DNA of 64,000 nucleotides from Halorussus rarus (GTDB lineage Archaea; Halobacteriota; Halobacteria; Halobacteriales; Haladaptataceae), in NCBI RefSeq assembly GCF_003369835.1, contig NZ_QPMJ01000003.1, positions 1 to 64,000 on the forward strand. Reading direction: 5' to 3'. Shown piece by piece: positions 1,121-9,323 of the stretch. Made by a program: the position numbers and the translations under genes. How positions within the stretch are numbered: position 1 is the first letter of the stretch; the number at the start of each line of letters is the position of its first letter. The notes under the pieces are model-generated. The model had not been told where the DNA came from. It searched no databases and saw only the letters and a program-made list of their open reading frames with translations.

Positions 1121-1305
1121 ACCCCCATACGACGCCGAACCGGAATAAAACCATCGGCGGGGTGCGTATCCGCAATCCGCCCGGAGCGCGTTTCTGCCCC
1201 GAGTCTGCAGGGTCGGGCGCGATGCCGTCCCGCCGCCGGTCGCAGCGGGCGGACCGCGGCCGGCGTCCCGCGGAGCGAGATTGTTAAGTAGTGTTCGCCG
1301 TCTCT

Positions 1306-1947
1306 ATGCAACAAATGCCACCGGCAGCCGACGACGGGCCGACGACGAAGGTCGGACGGCTCCTCGAGCGCTACGACCTCGGGGAGGCGTTCGGGGACCG
1401 ACTCGAGGCCGCCTGGCTGGGCGAGGGCGTCGAGCGACGCAGCCTCCGCGATCTCGCCGACCTGTTCAACCGCGAACTGCTCGCGGTCGCGATGGAGGAC
1501 GCGGGGATGGCGGCGCTCGACGGCGAGGTCGAGAACATCTACCGACTGCTGACCGACGACGACGTCTCCAGCGGGATGCGGACCGACGCCCGGCGCCGGC
1601 TCGACCGCAACGGCGTCGACGTCGAGTCGCTGGAGCGGGACTTCGTCTCCTACCAGGCGATACGAACGTACCTGAAGGACGTCCGCGAGGCGGAGTACGA
1701 CGACTCGGCCGCCGACGACCGGGTCGAGAAGGTGGCCGAGAGCGTCCGGCGGCTCCGGTCCCGGACCGTCTCGGTCGCCGAGGGCAACCTCGACCAGCTC
1801 CGGAACGCCGACGAACTCGAACTCGGCGAGAGCCGCGTGCTCGTCGACGTCACCGTGCTCTGCGAGGACTGCGGCGCCCAGTACTCCTACGACGAGTTGC
1901 TCGAACGGGGCGGCTGCGACTGCGAGCCCGACGTCAGATCTCGGTGA
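1306..1947 (+). CDS. rdfA: Rod-determining factor RdfA family protein
   Basis: The protein (213 residues from this start) matches the haloarchaeal RdfA family as I remember it: an N-terminal VGRLLERYDL motif, a helical middle and a small C-terminal metal-binding tail (CEDC followed by CDC). In Haloferax volcanii RdfA is needed for rod-shaped cells and acts in a cell-shape signalling network. A TATA-like TTAAGTA at 1284-1290 places the RNA start near 1310, so the transcript is probably leaderless and the ATG at 1306 or 1315 is favoured over the GTG at 1291. Its last 14 bases overlap the 3' end of the convergent SMC-related gene. Confidence 0.82.
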   Translation: MQQMPPAADDGPTTKVGRLLERYDLGEAFGDRLEAAWLGEGVERRSLRDLADLFNRELLAVAMEDAGMAALDGEVENIYRLLTDDDVSSGMRTDARRRLDRNGVDVESLERDFVSYQAIRTYLKDVREAEYDDSAADDRVEKVAESVRRLRSRTVSVAEGNLDQLRNADELELGESRVLVDVTVLCEDCGAQYSYDELLERGGCDCEPDVRSR

Positions 1948-3877
1948 CGCGGTCGTACTCGTCGTCGAGCGCCTCGGCGTCCTCGATCAGCAGCGCCACG
2001 ACCAGGTACGGCGCGAAGTCCGCGAAGTAGTCGACCAGCCCGGCGATCCGCTCGGAATCGATGGCCTCCAGCGAGTCGAGCAGCATGAACGGCACCTCCT
2101 CGTACAGCTCGTGGACCAGGTAGCCCGCCAGCGCGAAGATGAGTCCCGTGACCTCCCGCTCGCTTTCTGAGAGGTGGTCGACGGTGTCCTCGTAGGTTGC
2201 GCCGGAGTCCGTCGTGCGCACGACGTGGAGCTCGAACTGGGTCCGCTCGACCTTCTGGCGGCCCTCGCGGACTTCCCGGTCGACCCGCTCGATCCAGATG
2301 CGGTCGATGTTCTCGTACGCGAGGATGTCGAGGATGGCGGCCATGTGCTCGTTGAACTGCTCGATGGCTTCCTGCTCGACCTGGTCGATGCGGGTCCGGA
2401 GGTCGACCAGCTCGTCGCCGATCTCTTCGCGGCGCTGTTCGAGCGTCGACTCCTCGTCGAGCTGCTCCTCGATGACCTGGATCTCCTCGGTGACCGAGTC
2501 GAGTTCGGACTCGAGCTGGCCGAGCTCGAACTCGAGCTCGTTGGCCTCGCGGTGGTGTTCGAGCACCTCGCTGGTGCCGTCGCCGTCGTCGGCCTCCTCG
2601 ACCTCCTCCTCGAGCGACTGGATCTCCTCGCGCAGCTCGTCGGCCCGGCGCTTGTGGTCGTCGAGTCGCTGTTCGCGCTCGTCGATCTCATCCTCGAGCC
2701 CCTCGACCCGCTGCTCGACCGTCTGGCGTCGCTGGACGCGTTCGCGGCGCTCGCGGCGCTCGCTCAACAGCGACTCGATGTCGTCCTCGAGTTCGGAGAC
2801 GGCGTCGATCTTCTCGGCGCGCCGGTCTTTGAGCTCGTCGAGGGTGGTCTCGATGTTCGACTGGGCGACGGTCGACCCGCAGGTCCAGCAGGTCACCTCG
2901 GTGTCGGGCTCGACCAGCTGGTCGGTCACCGACCCGTCCTTCACCTGGGTGCCGCCGTCGTGCTGGAAGACCCGCTCGTCGTGGGAGCCGAGCATCTCCT
3001 CGTTGAACGAGATGGCGCTCTGGAGCTGGCTGATGTCGGCGTCGAGCCGCTGCTTCTCGTCGCGCAGCCGCTGGAGGCGCTCGTCGATCTCCTCGTCGGG
3101 CTCGGGGGCGTCGGGCAGTTCGTCGAGCTCCTCGCGGCAGTCCCGGAGTTCGGTCCGCAGCGAGTCGAGGCTCTCCTCCTCGGTGTCGATGTCGTACCGG
3201 ACGTCCTCGAGCTCCGAACGCGTCTCGCGGAGCTCCGCGAGCGCGGAGTCGACCTCGCTCTCGCCCGCCTGGTCGTCCGGGTCGGCGTCGAGCGACTCGA
3301 TCTCGGCCTCCTTCTCGGCGAGCGCCTCGCGGGTCTCCTCGATCTCGGCTTCGAGTTCGCTCCGGCGTTGCTCGAGCTCGGGGAGGTCGCGCTTGCGGTC
3401 CTCGATGTGCTCGAGTTGGGCGTCGATCTGGTCGCGTTCGGACTGTAGCGACTCGATCTCGGCCTCGATCTCGTCGGTGTCGATGGGCCGCATGATGATC
3501 TCGCGGAGGTCGTCGCCGCGGGCCACCGCCCGGCGGGCCTCGTTCTGCTCGAGCAGGAACGCGAACAGGTCGGCCAGCGAGGGGTCGTCGAGGTAGCTGT
3601 CGCCCGACCGGACGACGCCGTCCCCGTTGCGTTCGAGGGTCCGCCGGTAGGTCTCGTCGCCCATCCGGAGTTCGACGACGCCCGCCTCGGCGTCGCCCTT
3701 CAGGGTCGTCTCGTCGCTACCCATCGCGGTCATGACCGCCTGCAGGAACGAGGTCCGGTTCGTCGCGTTCCGCCCCGCGAGGACGGTGACCCCTGGCGAC
3801 AGCTCCACGTCGGTCTCGTCGATGCCGCCCACGTTCTCTGCGTGGAGAGCGGCGACGTCCTGACTCGCTTGGTCCAT
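1934..3877 (-). CDS. Archaea-specific SMC-related protein with central zinc hook
   Basis: This 647-residue protein has an N-terminal P-loop-like segment (GRNATNRTS), two long coiled-coil arms rich in Glu, Leu and Arg, a central CWTC motif near residue 330 resembling a Rad50 zinc hook, and a C-terminal ATPase half with LSESE (signature-like) and LLDSLEAID (Walker B/D-loop-like). The canonical Walker A lysine is Arg and the Walker B glutamate is Ser, so ATP hydrolysis is uncertain. The start MDQASQ at 3877 is chosen because a TATA-like box (TTATACTA on the minus strand, 3898-3905) lies about 25 bases upstream. Members of this family sit beside rdfA in other haloarchaea, which suggests a role in cell-shape control or chromosome organisation. 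Confidence 0.88.
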   Translation of the reverse strand: MDQASQDVAALHAENVGGIDETDVELSPGVTVLAGRNATNRTSFLQAVMTAMGSDETTLKGDAEAGVVELRMGDETYRRTLERNGDGVVRSGDSYLDDPSLADLFAFLLEQNEARRAVARGDDLREIIMRPIDTDEIEAEIESLQSERDQIDAQLEHIEDRKRDLPELEQRRSELEAEIEETREALAEKEAEIESLDADPDDQAGESEVDSALAELRETRSELEDVRYDIDTEEESLDSLRTELRDCREELDELPDAPEPDEEIDERLQRLRDEKQRLDADISQLQSAISFNEEMLGSHDERVFQHDGGTQVKDGSVTDQLVEPDTEVTCWTCGSTVAQSNIETTLDELKDRRAEKIDAVSELEDDIESLLSERRERRERVQRRQTVEQRVEGLEDEIDEREQRLDDHKRRADELREEIQSLEEEVEEADDGDGTSEVLEHHREANELEFELGQLESELDSVTEEIQVIEEQLDEESTLEQRREEIGDELVDLRTRIDQVEQEAIEQFNEHMAAILDILAYENIDRIWIERVDREVREGRQKVERTQFELHVVRTTDSGATYEDTVDHLSESEREVTGLIFALAGYLVHELYEEVPFMLLDSLEAIDSERIAGLVDYFADFAPYLVVALLIEDAEALDDEYDRVTEI

Positions 3878-4288
3878 ACGCTTACGTACGGTAGCAATAG
3901 TATAACGATTTCCCTCGCGGAGTCCGGACATCGTGAACGTATTACGATTATTGCTTGAATTACTCTCTGTATTCGAGAAATAATCGCGGGGATTCGCGTG
4001 ACCGACGAGACTCCGGACGTGCGTCCAGATTACCGCCGTCTCGCTCACCTGACGGGGCTTTTCCCGCGGGGCGACGGTGAGCGGCCGGGATTCCCCCTCC
4101 GCTCTCGACGAACGTCCGAGCCTATGCACGACAGGAATCAAATAGGTTCCTAGACCGGCAAACGAGCTGACTATTCTCGGAATATATTAGGAGATAATAA
4201 CTCTGGATGGTCGGAGTATATCGTCCGGACACCTTCGGCTCACCTTAGTATTACTGCCGGAAATTATCCGCCTGGGCGACCGGCCGTT
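3878..4288. other. Intergenic region, promoter of SMC-related gene
   Basis: About 410 bases carry no convincing gene. The part nearest 3877 holds the TATA-like box (3898-3905) of the SMC-related gene. The stretch 4141-4260 is clearly richer in A+T than its surroundings, with runs such as GAATATATTAGG and GTCGGAGTATATCG. A possible 88-residue N-terminal extension of the SMC gene through 3878-4141 was not accepted because its composition is unlike haloarchaeal protein and it would skip the promoter. Confidence 0.5.
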
Positions 4289-4943: not shown

Positions 4944-5876
4944 TTACCCGAAGTTCGGTCCCTCGACCGCCTCGTCCTCGGCGGTCCGCCAGTCGTGCTC
5001 GGCCGACCACGACAGGTCGCGCTCGGCCTTCGCAGTGGTGAACGCCGACGCCTCGCCGTCGAAGGCGCTCGCGTCCGGACCCTCGTCGTACAGCGCTTCG
5101 AACAACTGCGCGGTCTCGACGCCGAGGTAGTTCTCCGGAGCGTGACACAGGTACGGCTCGTGGCCCTCGAAGTCCGCCCGGAGCGCCGCCTCGACGAACC
5201 CCGCGAAGTCCCGGACGTCGACGTACGACCAGAAGTTGCCGACCCCGCCGACGTCGGGCGCACCGGGCGGCGCGGACTCCAGGTCGTCGAGGTCGAACGA
5301 CGCCCGGACGTCGGCGATCTCGTAGCGCCCGGGGTACTGTATCCACGAGGGGCGGACCGACGCAACGGGGACGCCGTCGCGCCGGGCCACCATCGCGGCG
5401 ACCGCCTCGCCCGCGACCTTCGAGGCGCCGTAGGGGTCCTCGGGCCGGAGCGGGTGGGCCTCGTCGACGGGCAGGTACTCGGGTTTCAGCACCGAGTCGG
5501 CGAACGGGAAGCCGTAGGCCGACTCGCTCGACGCCCAGACGACCTTGGCGTCGGCCCGGCCGGCCGCGTCGAGCACCGCGTACGCGCTCAGGACGTTGTT
5601 CTCGAACACCCGCGACCCGGCGTGGTTCAGCGGGTCGGGTATCGCGGCGAGGTGGACGACCGCGTCGGGGCCGGCGTCGGCGATAAGTTCGCCCGCCTCG
5701 CCGCCGTCGGTCAGGTCGACCGCGAAGAAGTCCGCCCCGTCGGGCACGTCGCCCTCGGGGAGTCGCCGGTCGAGTCCGACGACGTCGTAGCCCTCGTCGA
5801 GTAGCCTGTCGACCACCCATCGGCCGGCGCCACCCAGCGCTCCGGTGACGACGACGCTGTCGATGTTCGCTGTCAC
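4944..5876 (-). CDS. NAD-dependent epimerase/dehydratase (extended SDR)
   Basis: The 310-residue protein is an extended short-chain dehydrogenase. It has the N-terminal dinucleotide motif TGALGGAGR at about residues 11-19, the strand HLAAIPDP, a catalytic serine in SSESAYG, and YGASK as the Tyr-Lys pair. The closest functional types are nucleotide-sugar epimerases and uronate or sugar dehydrogenases; the substrate cannot be read from sequence. It uses a GTG start. It is divergent from the IclR regulator and lies at the edge of the uronate/xylose island, so a sugar or sugar-acid substrate is likely. Confidence 0.85.
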
Positions 5877-6065
5877 GGTCGGGCGAACGCGGACCGCGGT
5901 AATGAATCCCGCGATGGCGGCGTCGGCTCCGCGTCGATGCGTTCCACGGCGGACGAGCGACCCCGCCGACGTCGAATCCGGCGACGCCGAACTCGCCGTG
6001 TGTCGGACCGGTTCGCGTCCGGCCAGACGGCCGTCGTCGGTCCCTGCGAAATATCGAGAACGACC

Positions 6066-6082
6066 GTTCTGATATCCAGAAC
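6066..6082 (+). promoter_or_regulatory. Perfect palindromic operator at the iclR-type promoter
   Basis: GTTCTGATATCCAGAAC is a perfect palindrome of 6-bp half-sites around a 5-base centre. An extra half-site, AGAAC, lies at 6058-6062. A TATA-like CTTATG (6084-6089) follows directly, about 28-33 bases before the ATG of the regulator. The site touches the BRE/TATA region, which fits autoregulation by the IclR protein; this is inferred from position. Confidence 0.6.
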
Positions 6083-6116
6083 GCTTATGTTCGTCGGCCG
6101 CAAGAATTACCTAACC

Positions 6117-6872
6117 ATGGAGGCCAAACACCCTGTTCGCACCACCGAAAAGACGCTCCGGTTGGTCGAGGAGCTGATGGAGCAGGGGCAGTGCCGGGTG
6201 ACCGAACTCGCCGACGCGCTCGACATGGGCAAGAGCACGGTCCACAACCACCTGACCACCCTCCGCGAGCACGGCTACGTCGAACAGGTCGGCGAGGAGT
6301 ACCGGCTCGGGCTCAAGTTCCTCGAAGTGGGCGGCAACACCCGGAAGTCGATGGAGATCTACCAGGTCGCCGAGCCCGAGATCAAGCTGCTCGCCGAGGA
6401 GACCGGCGAACTCGCCAACCTGCTGGTCGAGGAGCAGGGACTGGGCGTCTACCTGATGCGGGCCAAGGGCGAGAAGGCCGTCGACCTCGACACCTACGCC
6501 GGCCTCCGGGTCAACCTCCACACCACCGCGCTCGGGAAGGCCATCCTCGCGTACCTCCCCGACGAGCGGGTCGACGAGATCGTCGAGCGCCGCGGCCTCG
6601 AGCGCAAGACGGCCGCGAGCATCGGATCGAGGGAAGAGCTGAACGAGTCGCTGGCGGCGGTCCGCGAGCGGGGCTACGCCATCGACGACGGCGAGCGCCT
6701 CGAGGGACTGCGCTGCATCGCCGCGCCCGTGAAGTCCTCCTCGGACGAGGTGCTGGGCGCGGTCAGCGTCTCGGCGCCCGCCCGCCGAGTGAGCGACGAC
6801 GACCTCCACGGCGAGCTCTCCGAGCGCGTGCTCAACGCCGCGAACGTCATCGAACTCAACGTCAACTACTGA
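6117..6872 (+). CDS. IclR-family transcriptional regulator
   Basis: The 251-residue protein has the two IclR domains. A winged helix covers residues 5-65, with recognition helix near [14 protein letters not shown] (37-50), and the effector-binding domain covers roughly 80-250, including [14 protein letters not shown] and the C-terminal LRCIAAPV segment. Haloarchaeal IclR regulators such as XacR control sugar pathways. This one sits at the head of the uronate/xylose island, so it is the best candidate local regulator. The ATG at 6117 is chosen because of the TATA-like element and palindrome just upstream; longer in-frame extensions would cross them. Confidence 0.92.
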
Positions 6873-6958
6873 CCCGGCGCGGTCCCGTTTTGCGCTGCGG
6901 AACGACTGCCCGGCATTTCAGAACGAGGTCTCCGACGGTCCGGTGCCGTCCGGCGCTC

Positions 6959-7738
6959 CTACTGGTCGCCGCTGCCCCAGCCGTAGGCCTGCCAGCCGCC
7001 GTCGGCGGTCAGGACCTCGCCCGTGACGAAGTTGTTCCGCCCGACGAGGAACAGCGCGCACTCGGCCATCTCCTCGACCGTGCCGAACCGGTGGAGGGGC
7101 GTCCGGTCGCGGATATCGTCGTCGGTGTACCCGCCCGAGCTCTGGGTCTGGTCGGTGATCTCGGTCCAGATGAACCCCGGCGCGAGCGCGTTGACGTAGA
7201 CGTCGTGCTCGGCCCACTCGACCGCCAGCGTCCTGGTGAGGTTGTTCACGCCCGCCTTCGACGCGCAGTAGGGCGACCGGAGCTGGAGCCCCCGCCCGCC
7301 CATCAGCGAGGAGATGTTGAGGATGGCGCCCTCGCCGTCCTGCTCGATCATCTGCCGGCCGGCGGCCTGGCAGCCGATGAACGTCCCGACCAGGTCGACG
7401 TCGACGACCTTCCGCCACTCCTCGACGTCGAACTCCTCGGCCGGCCCGAGCGTCGTCACGCCGGCGTTATTCACCATGACGTCGAGCCGACCGAACTCCT
7501 CGACGGTCGTCTCGACCAGCGCCGCCATCTCGTCCTCGTCGGTGACGTCGGCCTCGACCCCGATGGCGGTGCCGCCGGCCTCTTCGATGTCCGCGGCGAC
7601 CGACTCCGCGCGGTCGGCCGACCGGGAGTTGACGACGACGTTCGCGCCCTCCGCGGCGAACCGCTCGGCGATTCCCTTCCCGATGCCCTGGCTCGACCCG
7701 GTGACGATCGCGGTCTCCCCGCTCAGTCGCTCGCTCAT
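6959..7738 (-). CDS. Short-chain dehydrogenase, candidate fructuronate reductase
   Basis: This is a 259-residue classical SDR: TGSSQGIG cofactor motif near residues 13-20, NNAG, catalytic Ser in ISSLMGG, YCASK as the Tyr-Lys pair, and the C-terminal LTADGG. It lies 108 bases downstream of uxaC on the same strand, with uxuA a little further upstream. Between uronate isomerase and mannonate dehydratase the pathway needs reduction of fructuronate to mannonate, and no UxuB-type enzyme is visible here. SDR enzymes are known to fill this step in some bacteria, so this is the best candidate. A gluconate- or glucose-type dehydrogenase remains possible. Confidence 0.85.
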   Translation of the reverse strand: MSERLSGETAIVTGSSQGIGKGIAERFAAEGANVVVNSRSADRAESVAADIEEAGGTAIGVEADVTDEDEMAALVETTVEEFGRLDVMVNNAGVTTLGPAEEFDVEEWRKVVDVDLVGTFIGCQAAGRQMIEQDGEGAILNISSLMGGRGLQLRSPYCASKAGVNNLTRTLAVEWAEHDVYVNALAPGFIWTEITDQTQSSGGYTDDDIRDRTPLHRFGTVEEMAECALFLVGRNNFVTGEVLTADGGWQAYGWGSGDQ

Positions 7739-7846
7739 ACCCGATAACAGCGGCGAGTGCCGACTTCATTCTGTCGGTGCGGGGCGTCGCGACCGGCGGG
7801 TCGCCCCCGGGTCGGTCGCGACCGAGCGCGCGCGGCCGGCGTCCGG

Positions 7847-9220
7847 TCAGAGCCCGTAGAGTTCCTTCGGCCGGTCGTACGCGACGTGCTCGACGAGCCG
7901 CTCGGCGTTGCCGTACGGAATCCGGCCGCGCTCGACCATCCGGCCGACGACGTTCGCGAGCGTCCGCCGGAACATCTCGAACCGCGAGCCGTACGAGACC
8001 AGCTTCCGGGAGTCGCTGACCATCCCGGCGAAGTTCGCGAGCAGGTCGACCGACGCCACACGCTCCAGTTGGTTCTCGATGCCGAACGGGCTGTCGTTGA
8101 ACCACCACGCCGGGCCGACGCTCACGTTGGGGTAGGCCCGGGCGACGACCGTCGCGTCCGGGTAGTGGGTCGGGTCGAGCACGTAGAGGACGATCTCCAT
8201 CTCCCCGTCGAACGCGTCGAGGAAGTGGTCGAGGTCCGCGACGAGGTCGACGTCCTGGGTCGAGACGTCGCCGCCGGCGTTGGGGCCCAGTTCGTCGTAC
8301 AGCGACGCGCGGTAGTCCCGGACCGCCCCGACGTGCAGCTGGGTCACCCACCCCGCCTCGCTGTTGAGCTCGCCGACGAACTCCAGCAGGAACGCCCGGT
8401 AGTCCTCGACTTCCTCCGGTGAGAGGTTCTCGCCGCGTCGGGCCTTCTCGTACACCGCGGCCGCCCGTTCGCGGCTCACGGGCTTCGACACCGGCTCGGT
8501 CCCCGTACCGATATCGCAGGCGACGCAGCCGCGCTCGTCGAAGTAGTCGTGGCTCGCTTCGAGCGCGTCGAGGAAGGCAGCGAAGCCGCCGCCGTCCACG
8601 TCGACGTCGGTGGCGTCGTCGAGCTCCGCGACGAACGACGACCACGACTCGGTGTCGATCTTCAGCGCGCGGTCGGGCCGCCACGTCGGCCGGACGTCGA
8701 CGCCTTCGAACTCCTCGGCGGCCCGCTCGTGGTACGCGAGGTCGTCGGTCGGGTCGTCGCTGCTGCACAGCACCTCGACGTTCATGTCCCGGAGCACCTG
8801 CTGGGGACGCAACTCGGGCGCGGCGAGCTGGCGCTTGGTCTCGGTCCAGATGTCGTCGGCTGTGTCGGCGTTGATCGGTTCGCCGATGCCGAACCGCCGC
8901 TGCAGGTCGAGGTGGACCCACTCGTAGGTCGGGTTGCCCGCGAAGTCGGGGAACACCTCCGCGAGCGCGTCCCACTTCTCGCGGTTGCTCGCGCCGCCGG
9001 TGATCCTCTCCTCGGGGACGCCGCGCTTGCGCATCAGCTGCCAGACGTAGTGGTCGGTCGCGCCCTCGACCTCCCAGACGTCGCTCCACGGCTCGTTCTC
9101 GACGACCTCGGCGAGGTCGACGTGGTTGTGCGGATCGACGACGGGGAGGTCCTCGATAGACTCGTAGAGTCGATAGGCGGCGTCGCTGTCCAGCAGATAC
9201 CGCTCGTCGATGAATCCCAT
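7847..9220 (-). CDS. uxaC: Glucuronate (uronate) isomerase
   Basis: The 457-residue protein fits the UxaC family of the amidohydrolase superfamily in length and motifs: the metal pair HNH at residues 31-33, AWWFND in the C-terminal third, and GMVSDSRK followed by SRFEMFRR. The enzyme converts D-glucuronate to D-fructuronate (and galacturonate to tagaturonate) in the cytoplasm. The start at 9220 is supported by a TATA-like CTTTATTGG about 30 bases upstream, rather than the ATG 39 bases earlier. It is followed by the candidate fructuronate reductase and preceded by uxuA, forming a uronate-degradation block. Confidence 0.94.
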   Translation of the reverse strand: MGFIDERYLLDSDAAYRLYESIEDLPVVDPHNHVDLAEVVENEPWSDVWEVEGATDHYVWQLMRKRGVPEERITGGASNREKWDALAEVFPDFAGNPTYEWVHLDLQRRFGIGEPINADTADDIWTETKRQLAAPELRPQQVLRDMNVEVLCSSDDPTDDLAYHERAAEEFEGVDVRPTWRPDRALKIDTESWSSFVAELDDATDVDVDGGGFAAFLDALEASHDYFDERGCVACDIGTGTEPVSKPVSRERAAAVYEKARRGENLSPEEVEDYRAFLLEFVGELNSEAGWVTQLHVGAVRDYRASLYDELGPNAGGDVSTQDVDLVADLDHFLDAFDGEMEIVLYVLDPTHYPDATVVARAYPNVSVGPAWWFNDSPFGIENQLERVASVDLLANFAGMVSDSRKLVSYGSRFEMFRRTLANVVGRMVERGRIPYGNAERLVEHVAYDRPKELYGL

Positions 9221-9323
9221 GGACGCTAATGCCCGGACGTCGCCAATAAAGGTTCGCACGTCGGGGAATCATCGCGTCGAGGGAGCCGACGTAGCTTCGC
9301 GCTCGCACCCGACTGTCCAACCG

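Follow-up and report, generated by a model that had tools for sequence, protein, structure and literature searches.

The convergent gene pair near the start of the 64,000-nucleotide stretch of Halorussus rarus DNA analysed here (the window) is one more pair of an RdfA-family gene with a gene for an archaea-specific SMC-related protein (ASRP, or Sph), on a contig whose gene order largely matches that of a Halorussus vallis plasmid. The reading we prefer, with a probability of about 60%, is that the two genes encode proteins that evolve together as a pair, the SMC-like one serving as a static clamp and not as a motor, and that the overlap of their 3' ends is a product of drift. For the window copy we infer contact between RdfA and ASRP, clamp action and an effect on cell shape. 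The locus itself is ordinary; adjacency of the two families and the rarity of their linkage to DdfA were already known (PMC10869688; papers are cited here from the available portions of their text). The results at the level of the families make it testable how an SMC-like protein sets archaeal cell shape. The features discussed below are the following, in window coordinates.

1280-1291, plus strand: AT-rich, promoter-like stretch 15-26 bases before the rdfA ATG, a candidate picked by eye
1306-1947, plus strand: rdfA-family gene, 213 aa from the ATG at 1306 (GTG at 1291 as alternative start), PF21811 262 bits
1861-1923, plus strand: zinc-ribbon-like CxxC...CxC at the C-terminus of RdfA, with conserved Cys and two short strands in the AF2 model
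1934-1947, both strands: tail-to-tail overlap of 14 bases, from ORF calls
1934-3877, minus strand: ASRP/Sph gene, ATG at 3877, 647 aa, NF045487 691 bits
1970-1981, minus strand: second copy of the 12-base repeat GACGCCGAGGCG, at the deletion junction of the other genomic copy
2057-2089, minus strand: Walker B, FMLLDSLEAID, with Ser at the position of the catalytic Glu
2876-2890, minus strand: zinc hook CWTCG, residues 330-334
3683-3694, minus strand: first copy of the 12-base repeat GACGCCGAGGCG, within the window ASRP gene
3749-3775, minus strand: non-canonical Walker A, GRNATNRTS, with Arg at the Lys position
3897-3905, minus strand: TATA-like TTATACTAT before the ASRP ATG, with identical letters in Halorussus vallis, a candidate

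The two proteins and the nucleotide site of ASRP

A sequence-only reading of this DNA had named the genes a rod-determining factor homologue and a gene for a zinc-hook SMC-related protein, and both family names were right. In profile searches RdfA is full-length over PF21811 (positions 1-195 of 195; 262 bits against a gathering cut-off of 27) and ASRP over NCBIfam NF045487 (1-591 of 593; 691 bits against a cut-off of 300). The zinc hook is also there, since the CWTCG motif sits between coiled coils, with long helices on both sides in the AF2 model. Computed from a nine-row alignment, this model (pLDDT 84.4) has a head and long coiled coils, and in structure it most resembles Rad50 and SMC heads, among them 3qku (Z 20.5 over 305 residues, 5.1 Å) and 5xns (Z 20.4 over 323 residues, 3.7 Å); the ASRP sequence had 0 matches among solved structures. 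The AF2 model of RdfA (213 residues, pLDDT 83.7) is helical in its N-terminal part, has a long helix at residues 136-167 and places its CxxC...CxC between two short strands, each of these Cys being present in 96-98% of rows (n=92). No usable structural match to the RdfA fold was found (best E of 0.6 in Foldseek, best Z of 4.3 with VIA), and the RdfA sequence had a single match among solved structures, at E 0.32.

Walker A and B motifs have been described in ASRPs (PMC9389158), and the available part of that paper carries no remark on a loss of residues. The window ASRP departs from what is expected of an ATP-hydrolysing SMC or Rad50 protein, with Arg for the Walker A Lys and Ser for the Walker B Glu. 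Across 82 haloarchaeal ASRP rows, which include the duplicate L028 and count the split gene L130 as two, each nucleotide-site motif was found in 81. Walker A mostly reads GRNATNRTS, with Arg in 75 of 81 rows and Lys in 6, and the Walker B Asp is followed by Ser in 76, by Ala in 4, by Arg in 1 and by Glu in none. Among 14 additional haloarchaeal ASRPs, selected as apparently lone, Glu occurs once (L223) and Lys four times (L216, L217, L220 and L223). All seven ASRPs from outside Halobacteria keep the Lys and have Glu (4), Asn (2) or Asp (1) at the Walker B position; three of these proteins (L207, L208 and L209) fall slightly short of the NF045487 cut-off, and that of L226 was found with our own profile only. 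The loss of residues in haloarchaea and the Lys-keeping ASRPs outside the class extend the cited literature, and we do not claim the first report of the loss. Judged by these residues, the SMC-like partner seems to lack what ATP hydrolysis needs and hence to be a pseudo-ATPase. The altered Walker motif, which is itself strongly conserved, may bind or use nucleotide in some other way.

It is unlikely that ASRP is instead an active DNA-organising ATPase like the Sulfolobus coalescin, with RdfA as its loader and cell shape as a by-effect of chromosome organisation. Such a role would fit the common family of haloarchaeal Sph and coalescin (united as ASRPs in PMC9389158, and with NF045487 above cut-off in S. 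acidocaldarius), the drop to about 5-20% survival in a gene-conversion assay when any one of the four Sph proteins of Haloferax is lost (PMC11276520) and the two outside-class ASRPs with intact motifs that adjoin an RdfA-like gene. However, nearly every haloarchaeal row has other amino acids in place of the catalytic ones, and Halobacterium salinarum is without transcription-linked compartments (PMC9389158). Under the clamp reading, ASRP would form a zinc-hooked dimer whose heads, having neither the Walker A Lys nor the Walker B Glu, would act as a stable clamp or scaffold with no cycle of ATP hydrolysis; DNA or a cell-shape structure would be its target.

Gene order in relatives, the overlap and ddfA

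A census of 97 genomes of the class, covering 150 of 175 RdfA matches and the best 12 ASRP candidates per genome, placed an ASRP within 3 kb of 109 of these 150 RdfA places; 64 of the pairs were rdfA-first, 17 SMC-first, 19 convergent and 9 divergent. With 14 RdfA places added (164 of 175) and a distance limit of 1 kb, the close pairs numbered 120 (69 rdfA-first, 20 SMC-first, 20 convergent and 11 divergent). Left out were an ASRP place below the cut-off (G060:C2:363095) and, from the enlarged census, an RdfA fragment interrupted by three stops (G036:C5:12435). An RdfA match in G191 was discarded as a SurA-like frame by eye. Counted from the other gene, RdfA lies within 1 kb of 118 of 141 ASRP places, a total in which the split gene of G096 stands twice; L217 and L223 appear as lone ASRPs in this 1-kb count, yet on reading the DNA each has an adjacent RdfA. 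These figures can be set beside a published adjacency of 42 of 54 RdfA and 42 of 50 SMC-like proteins (PMC10869688); ASRP genes have no consensus neighbours according to the available part of PMC9389158. In the G096 locus (L130, on C37) the ASRP gene is split into two reading frames beside an open RdfA gene.

No ASRP lies within 1 kb of 44 of the 164 RdfA places (164 of 175 matches), one of which is in the genome of the window itself (C2:1164264). This second, lone RdfA-family gene (L118, C2:1164264-1164842) has no ASRP in the 12.6 kb around it. Five more lone RdfA genes (L121, L122 and L124-L126) cluster in the tree with the paired L132.

The sequence-only reading had correctly placed a 14-base overlap at the 3' ends (1934-1947 from the ORF calls) and had proposed that opposed transcripts give antisense control of shape genes, with a comparison of gene order as one check. 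That comparison, once run, found the convergent arrangement in 20 of 120 close pairs, so that it is not kept in relatives. On quick trees of 79 pairs with open backbones, approximate for that reason, we counted no fewer than 16 changes of arrangement on the ASRP tree and no fewer than 13 on the RdfA tree. Convergent loci themselves seldom overlap: of the 22 measured (20 relatives, the window and H. vallis, with the duplicate L028 excluded and L070 counted as divergent), four do so, by 25, 14, 4 and 4 bases, and 18 have gaps of 9-213 bases. An extra convergent locus, L219, has a gap of 66.

A mechanism in which the overlapping convergent transcripts regulate each other, by antisense action or collision, and so couple the doses of two shape proteins would suit the tail-to-tail overlap in the window and the convergence of 8 of the 9 rows in the window's RdfA clade. 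Against it, 18 of the 22 measured convergent loci have no overlap and 89 of the 120 close pairs are co-directional, and we regard it as highly improbable. A conserved antisense element is thus unsupported, because few convergent loci overlap and most are gapped. The main text of PMC10869688 has no mention of orientation, strand, convergence or antisense. Since the pair is kept in many relatives at any gene orientation, the overlap of 14 bases is probably incidental. Its origin may lie in drift of a stop codon. In Halorussus vallis the stop codons of the two genes share four bases, CTAG; in the window this shared stop is altered and rdfA runs ten bases longer, which makes the overlap of 14. The unit under selection would then be the protein partnership and not the layout of transcripts.

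Each gene would have a promoter of its own. In profiles aligned on guessed gene starts, AT content peaks 26-31 bases before the assumed starts of both genes in every arrangement, and ASRP genes that follow rdfA (34 loci) have the peak as well, at 0.70 against 0.50 overall. The known position of the archaeal TATA element is the background to a promoter reading of this peak, which fits separate promoters with short leaders.

The window ASRP gene also has a deleted second copy in its own genome (C2:1087349-1087616, or 6350-6617 of L119), in which 1713 bases are gone between two 12-base direct repeats and an in-frame ORF of 75 codons is left. The last 60 bases of this copy equal window 1922-1981 exactly, so it carries part of the convergent rdfA tail. 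Its ORF has a promoter-like start, and 0.3 kb upstream there is an ORF of the phage integrase family.

A third gene enters the question of gene order through Haloferax, where, as the sequence-only reading had it, the two families do lie with ddfA (HVO_2174-2176, PMC10869688). It had further been said that no gene of that kind is near, and a local profile scan indeed detected no HalOD1 (DdfA-like) domain in the 64-kb window. This absence is no anomaly, however: DdfA, which bears a HalOD1 domain, seldom forms a cluster with RdfA and Sph3 outside Hfx. volcanii (PMC10869688), and among 88 loci (the pair at 79, RdfA alone at nine, flanks of about 4-6 kb) a clear HalOD1 gene stood near the pair in four. 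Three of the four loci are Haloferax-like (L106, L109 and L111), a label given because two other RdfA proteins of the genus are 75-86% identical to RdfA of named Haloferax plasmids; in the fourth, L115, the protein was assigned by its domain alone and not by likeness to DdfA. The genome of the window has 33 HalOD1 domains, the nearest on the same contig at 96920, beyond the window. As DdfA reference we took the HalOD1 genes adjoining the pairs of the Haloferax-like genus (98 and 104 aa, 57% identical over 86 residues). Among 30 of the 33 domains none was a reciprocal best relative of DdfA, the domain being short and the scores close, and with these 30 compared, a ddfA elsewhere in the genome is neither shown nor excluded.

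Co-occurrence, co-divergence and function

RdfA and ASRP occur together, are usually adjacent, have been re-oriented repeatedly and have diverged in parallel. Of the 97 class genomes, 81 carry both families and 15 carry neither; RdfA stands without ASRP in one, and ASRP without RdfA in none (E limits of 1e-8 for RdfA and 1e-75 for ASRP; Fisher p 1e-16, uncorrected for kinship). Tree distances of the two proteins correlate with r 0.81 over 79 pairs and with r 0.66 over the 73 pairs left without six deep loci, and in either case none of 2000 permutations was as high. The ASRP tree and the pair tests exclude L028, whose ASRP is identical to that of L021, and the split gene L130. In a paralogue-swap control for host ancestry, which used 10 genomes with two or three pairs, the true neighbour fitted better in 14 of 14 comparisons, which partly share genomes and so are not all independent; they include pairs that differ in orientation. 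Linkage alone could be an alternative source of the co-divergence of neighbours. An apparent conflict between the trees over the window ASRP was gone in an AU test, which favoured, by 48 log units (p-AU 0.959), the tree in which this ASRP was constrained to stand next to its RdfA clade.

In the preferred reading RdfA, with its helical part, long helix and zinc-ribbon-like end, would be a dedicated partner of ASRP, and the quantity of the RdfA-ASRP complex would bias cell shape. The results point to such a partnership, and they lead one to expect that ATP hydrolysis is dispensable, a prediction open to test in Haloferax volcanii. Partner proteins of coalescin are listed as still to be found in PMC9764264.

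Alternatively, the pair could be an accessory module carried by plasmids that here serves something other than shape, for example maintenance of the plasmid or protection from foreign DNA. RdfA is matched at 185 places in 126 plasmid records and reaches five copies per genome among the 97, ASRP is weakly similar to the LmuB and JetC models, and chains of MukB, Lamassu and JetABC are among its fold matches. We nevertheless hold this to be very unlikely, because many pairs sit on contigs of 2-4 Mb, most of the weak LmuB and JetC similarity falls within the coiled coil, the defence library gave no match to RdfA, and Haloferax genetics indicates shape and motility (PMC10869688). In viral contigs, 17 stretches fitted a pattern and none coded for an RdfA relative by tblastn.

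In Haloferax, HVO_2174 (RdfA) is reported to be required for rods, and loss of RdfA or Sph3 leaves disks only (PMC10869688); sph3 loss leaves only disks also in PMC11276520, where loss of Sph2 gives mostly rods. Sph3 is described as plate-promoting in PMC13286277, the opposite of both of these papers. Judging from the trees and these phenotypes, the label "rod-determining" should not be carried over to the window copy, because losses of Sph2 and Sph3 act oppositely and the window pair falls outside the ddfA-linked clade. That clade is the starred group of three rows, L106, L109 and L111, which excludes the window pair in both quick trees, their backbone being poorly resolved.

Comparison with known systems

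Among plasmid records, the nearest relative found was the pair on Halorussus vallis plasmid NZ_CP100002.1 (NGM07_RS23030 and RS23025; RdfA 85.8% and ASRP 86.4% identical), which is also convergent, with an overlap of 4 bases against 14, and has the same flanking order of Usp, IclR, (sugar) dehydrogenase and uxaC/glucuronate isomerase. Between ASRP and IclR, an additional epimerase-family gene (4944-5876) is present in the window and not in H. vallis. Genes for epimerase, IclR, short-chain dehydrogenase and glucuronate isomerase flank the window pair at 4944-9259. On a Haloprofundus salinisoli plasmid, an IclR gene and sugar-acid genes likewise flank a convergent pair.

As in rdfA-sph3-ddfA of Haloferax volcanii (HVO_2174-2176; PMC10869688), RdfA and Sph lie side by side. 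We represent the ddfA-linked pair of Haloferax by the Haloferax-like L106, L109 and L111 and not by the H. volcanii sequence itself; in these the genes are co-directional with HalOD1 next door, whereas in the window they are convergent, overlapping and without HalOD1. Sulfolobus coalescin, ClsN, shares the ASRP family and the zinc hook with the window protein and belongs to a separate clade (PMC9389158). RdfA had no match in the S. acidocaldarius control. Compared with Rad50 and SMC proteins, the predicted head fold is alike; the window ASRP differs in having its hydrolysis residues replaced and in being only 647 aa long.

Outside the class, five genomes had an ASRP in the NF045487 search, of which one only (G116, that of L204) had an RdfA match, and in G270 and G278 RdfA-like genes have no ASRP within a stretch of 7-8 kb. 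In L205, L207, L208 and partly L206, ASRP stands in a recurring cassette with CxxC-bearing proteins (identified by eye) and an AAA ATPase, weakly IetA-like in L207. The cassettes of L205, L207 and L208 have a PAPS-reductase-family gene, BrxP/SspD/DndC-like in L207, and L205-L208 are possibly a defence or DNA-modification island.

In two outside-class genomes of one family, which we guess to be methanogens, an RdfA-like gene directly follows ASRP (PF21811 35.4 bits in L204, above the cut-off of 27, and 25.3 bits in L226, below it), and a winged-helix gene comes next (HTH_45 27.3 and 26.7 bits, cut-off 25.5). The three genes thus stand in one row, at 3872-7115 of L204 and 4339-7353 of L226, and both ASRPs have the Lys and the Glu. 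Such a row may be likened to SMC-kleisin-ScpB gene sets. With this in mind, it is possible, and we put it forward only tentatively, that an ATP-hydrolysing module of ASRP, RdfA-like and winged-helix proteins was deprived of its ATPase residues in haloarchaea and turned into a static scaffold, zinc-hooked and bound by RdfA, which then multiplied into freely re-oriented paralogous pairs that push cell shape in opposite directions. If true, an SMC complex would have been converted into a shape switch.
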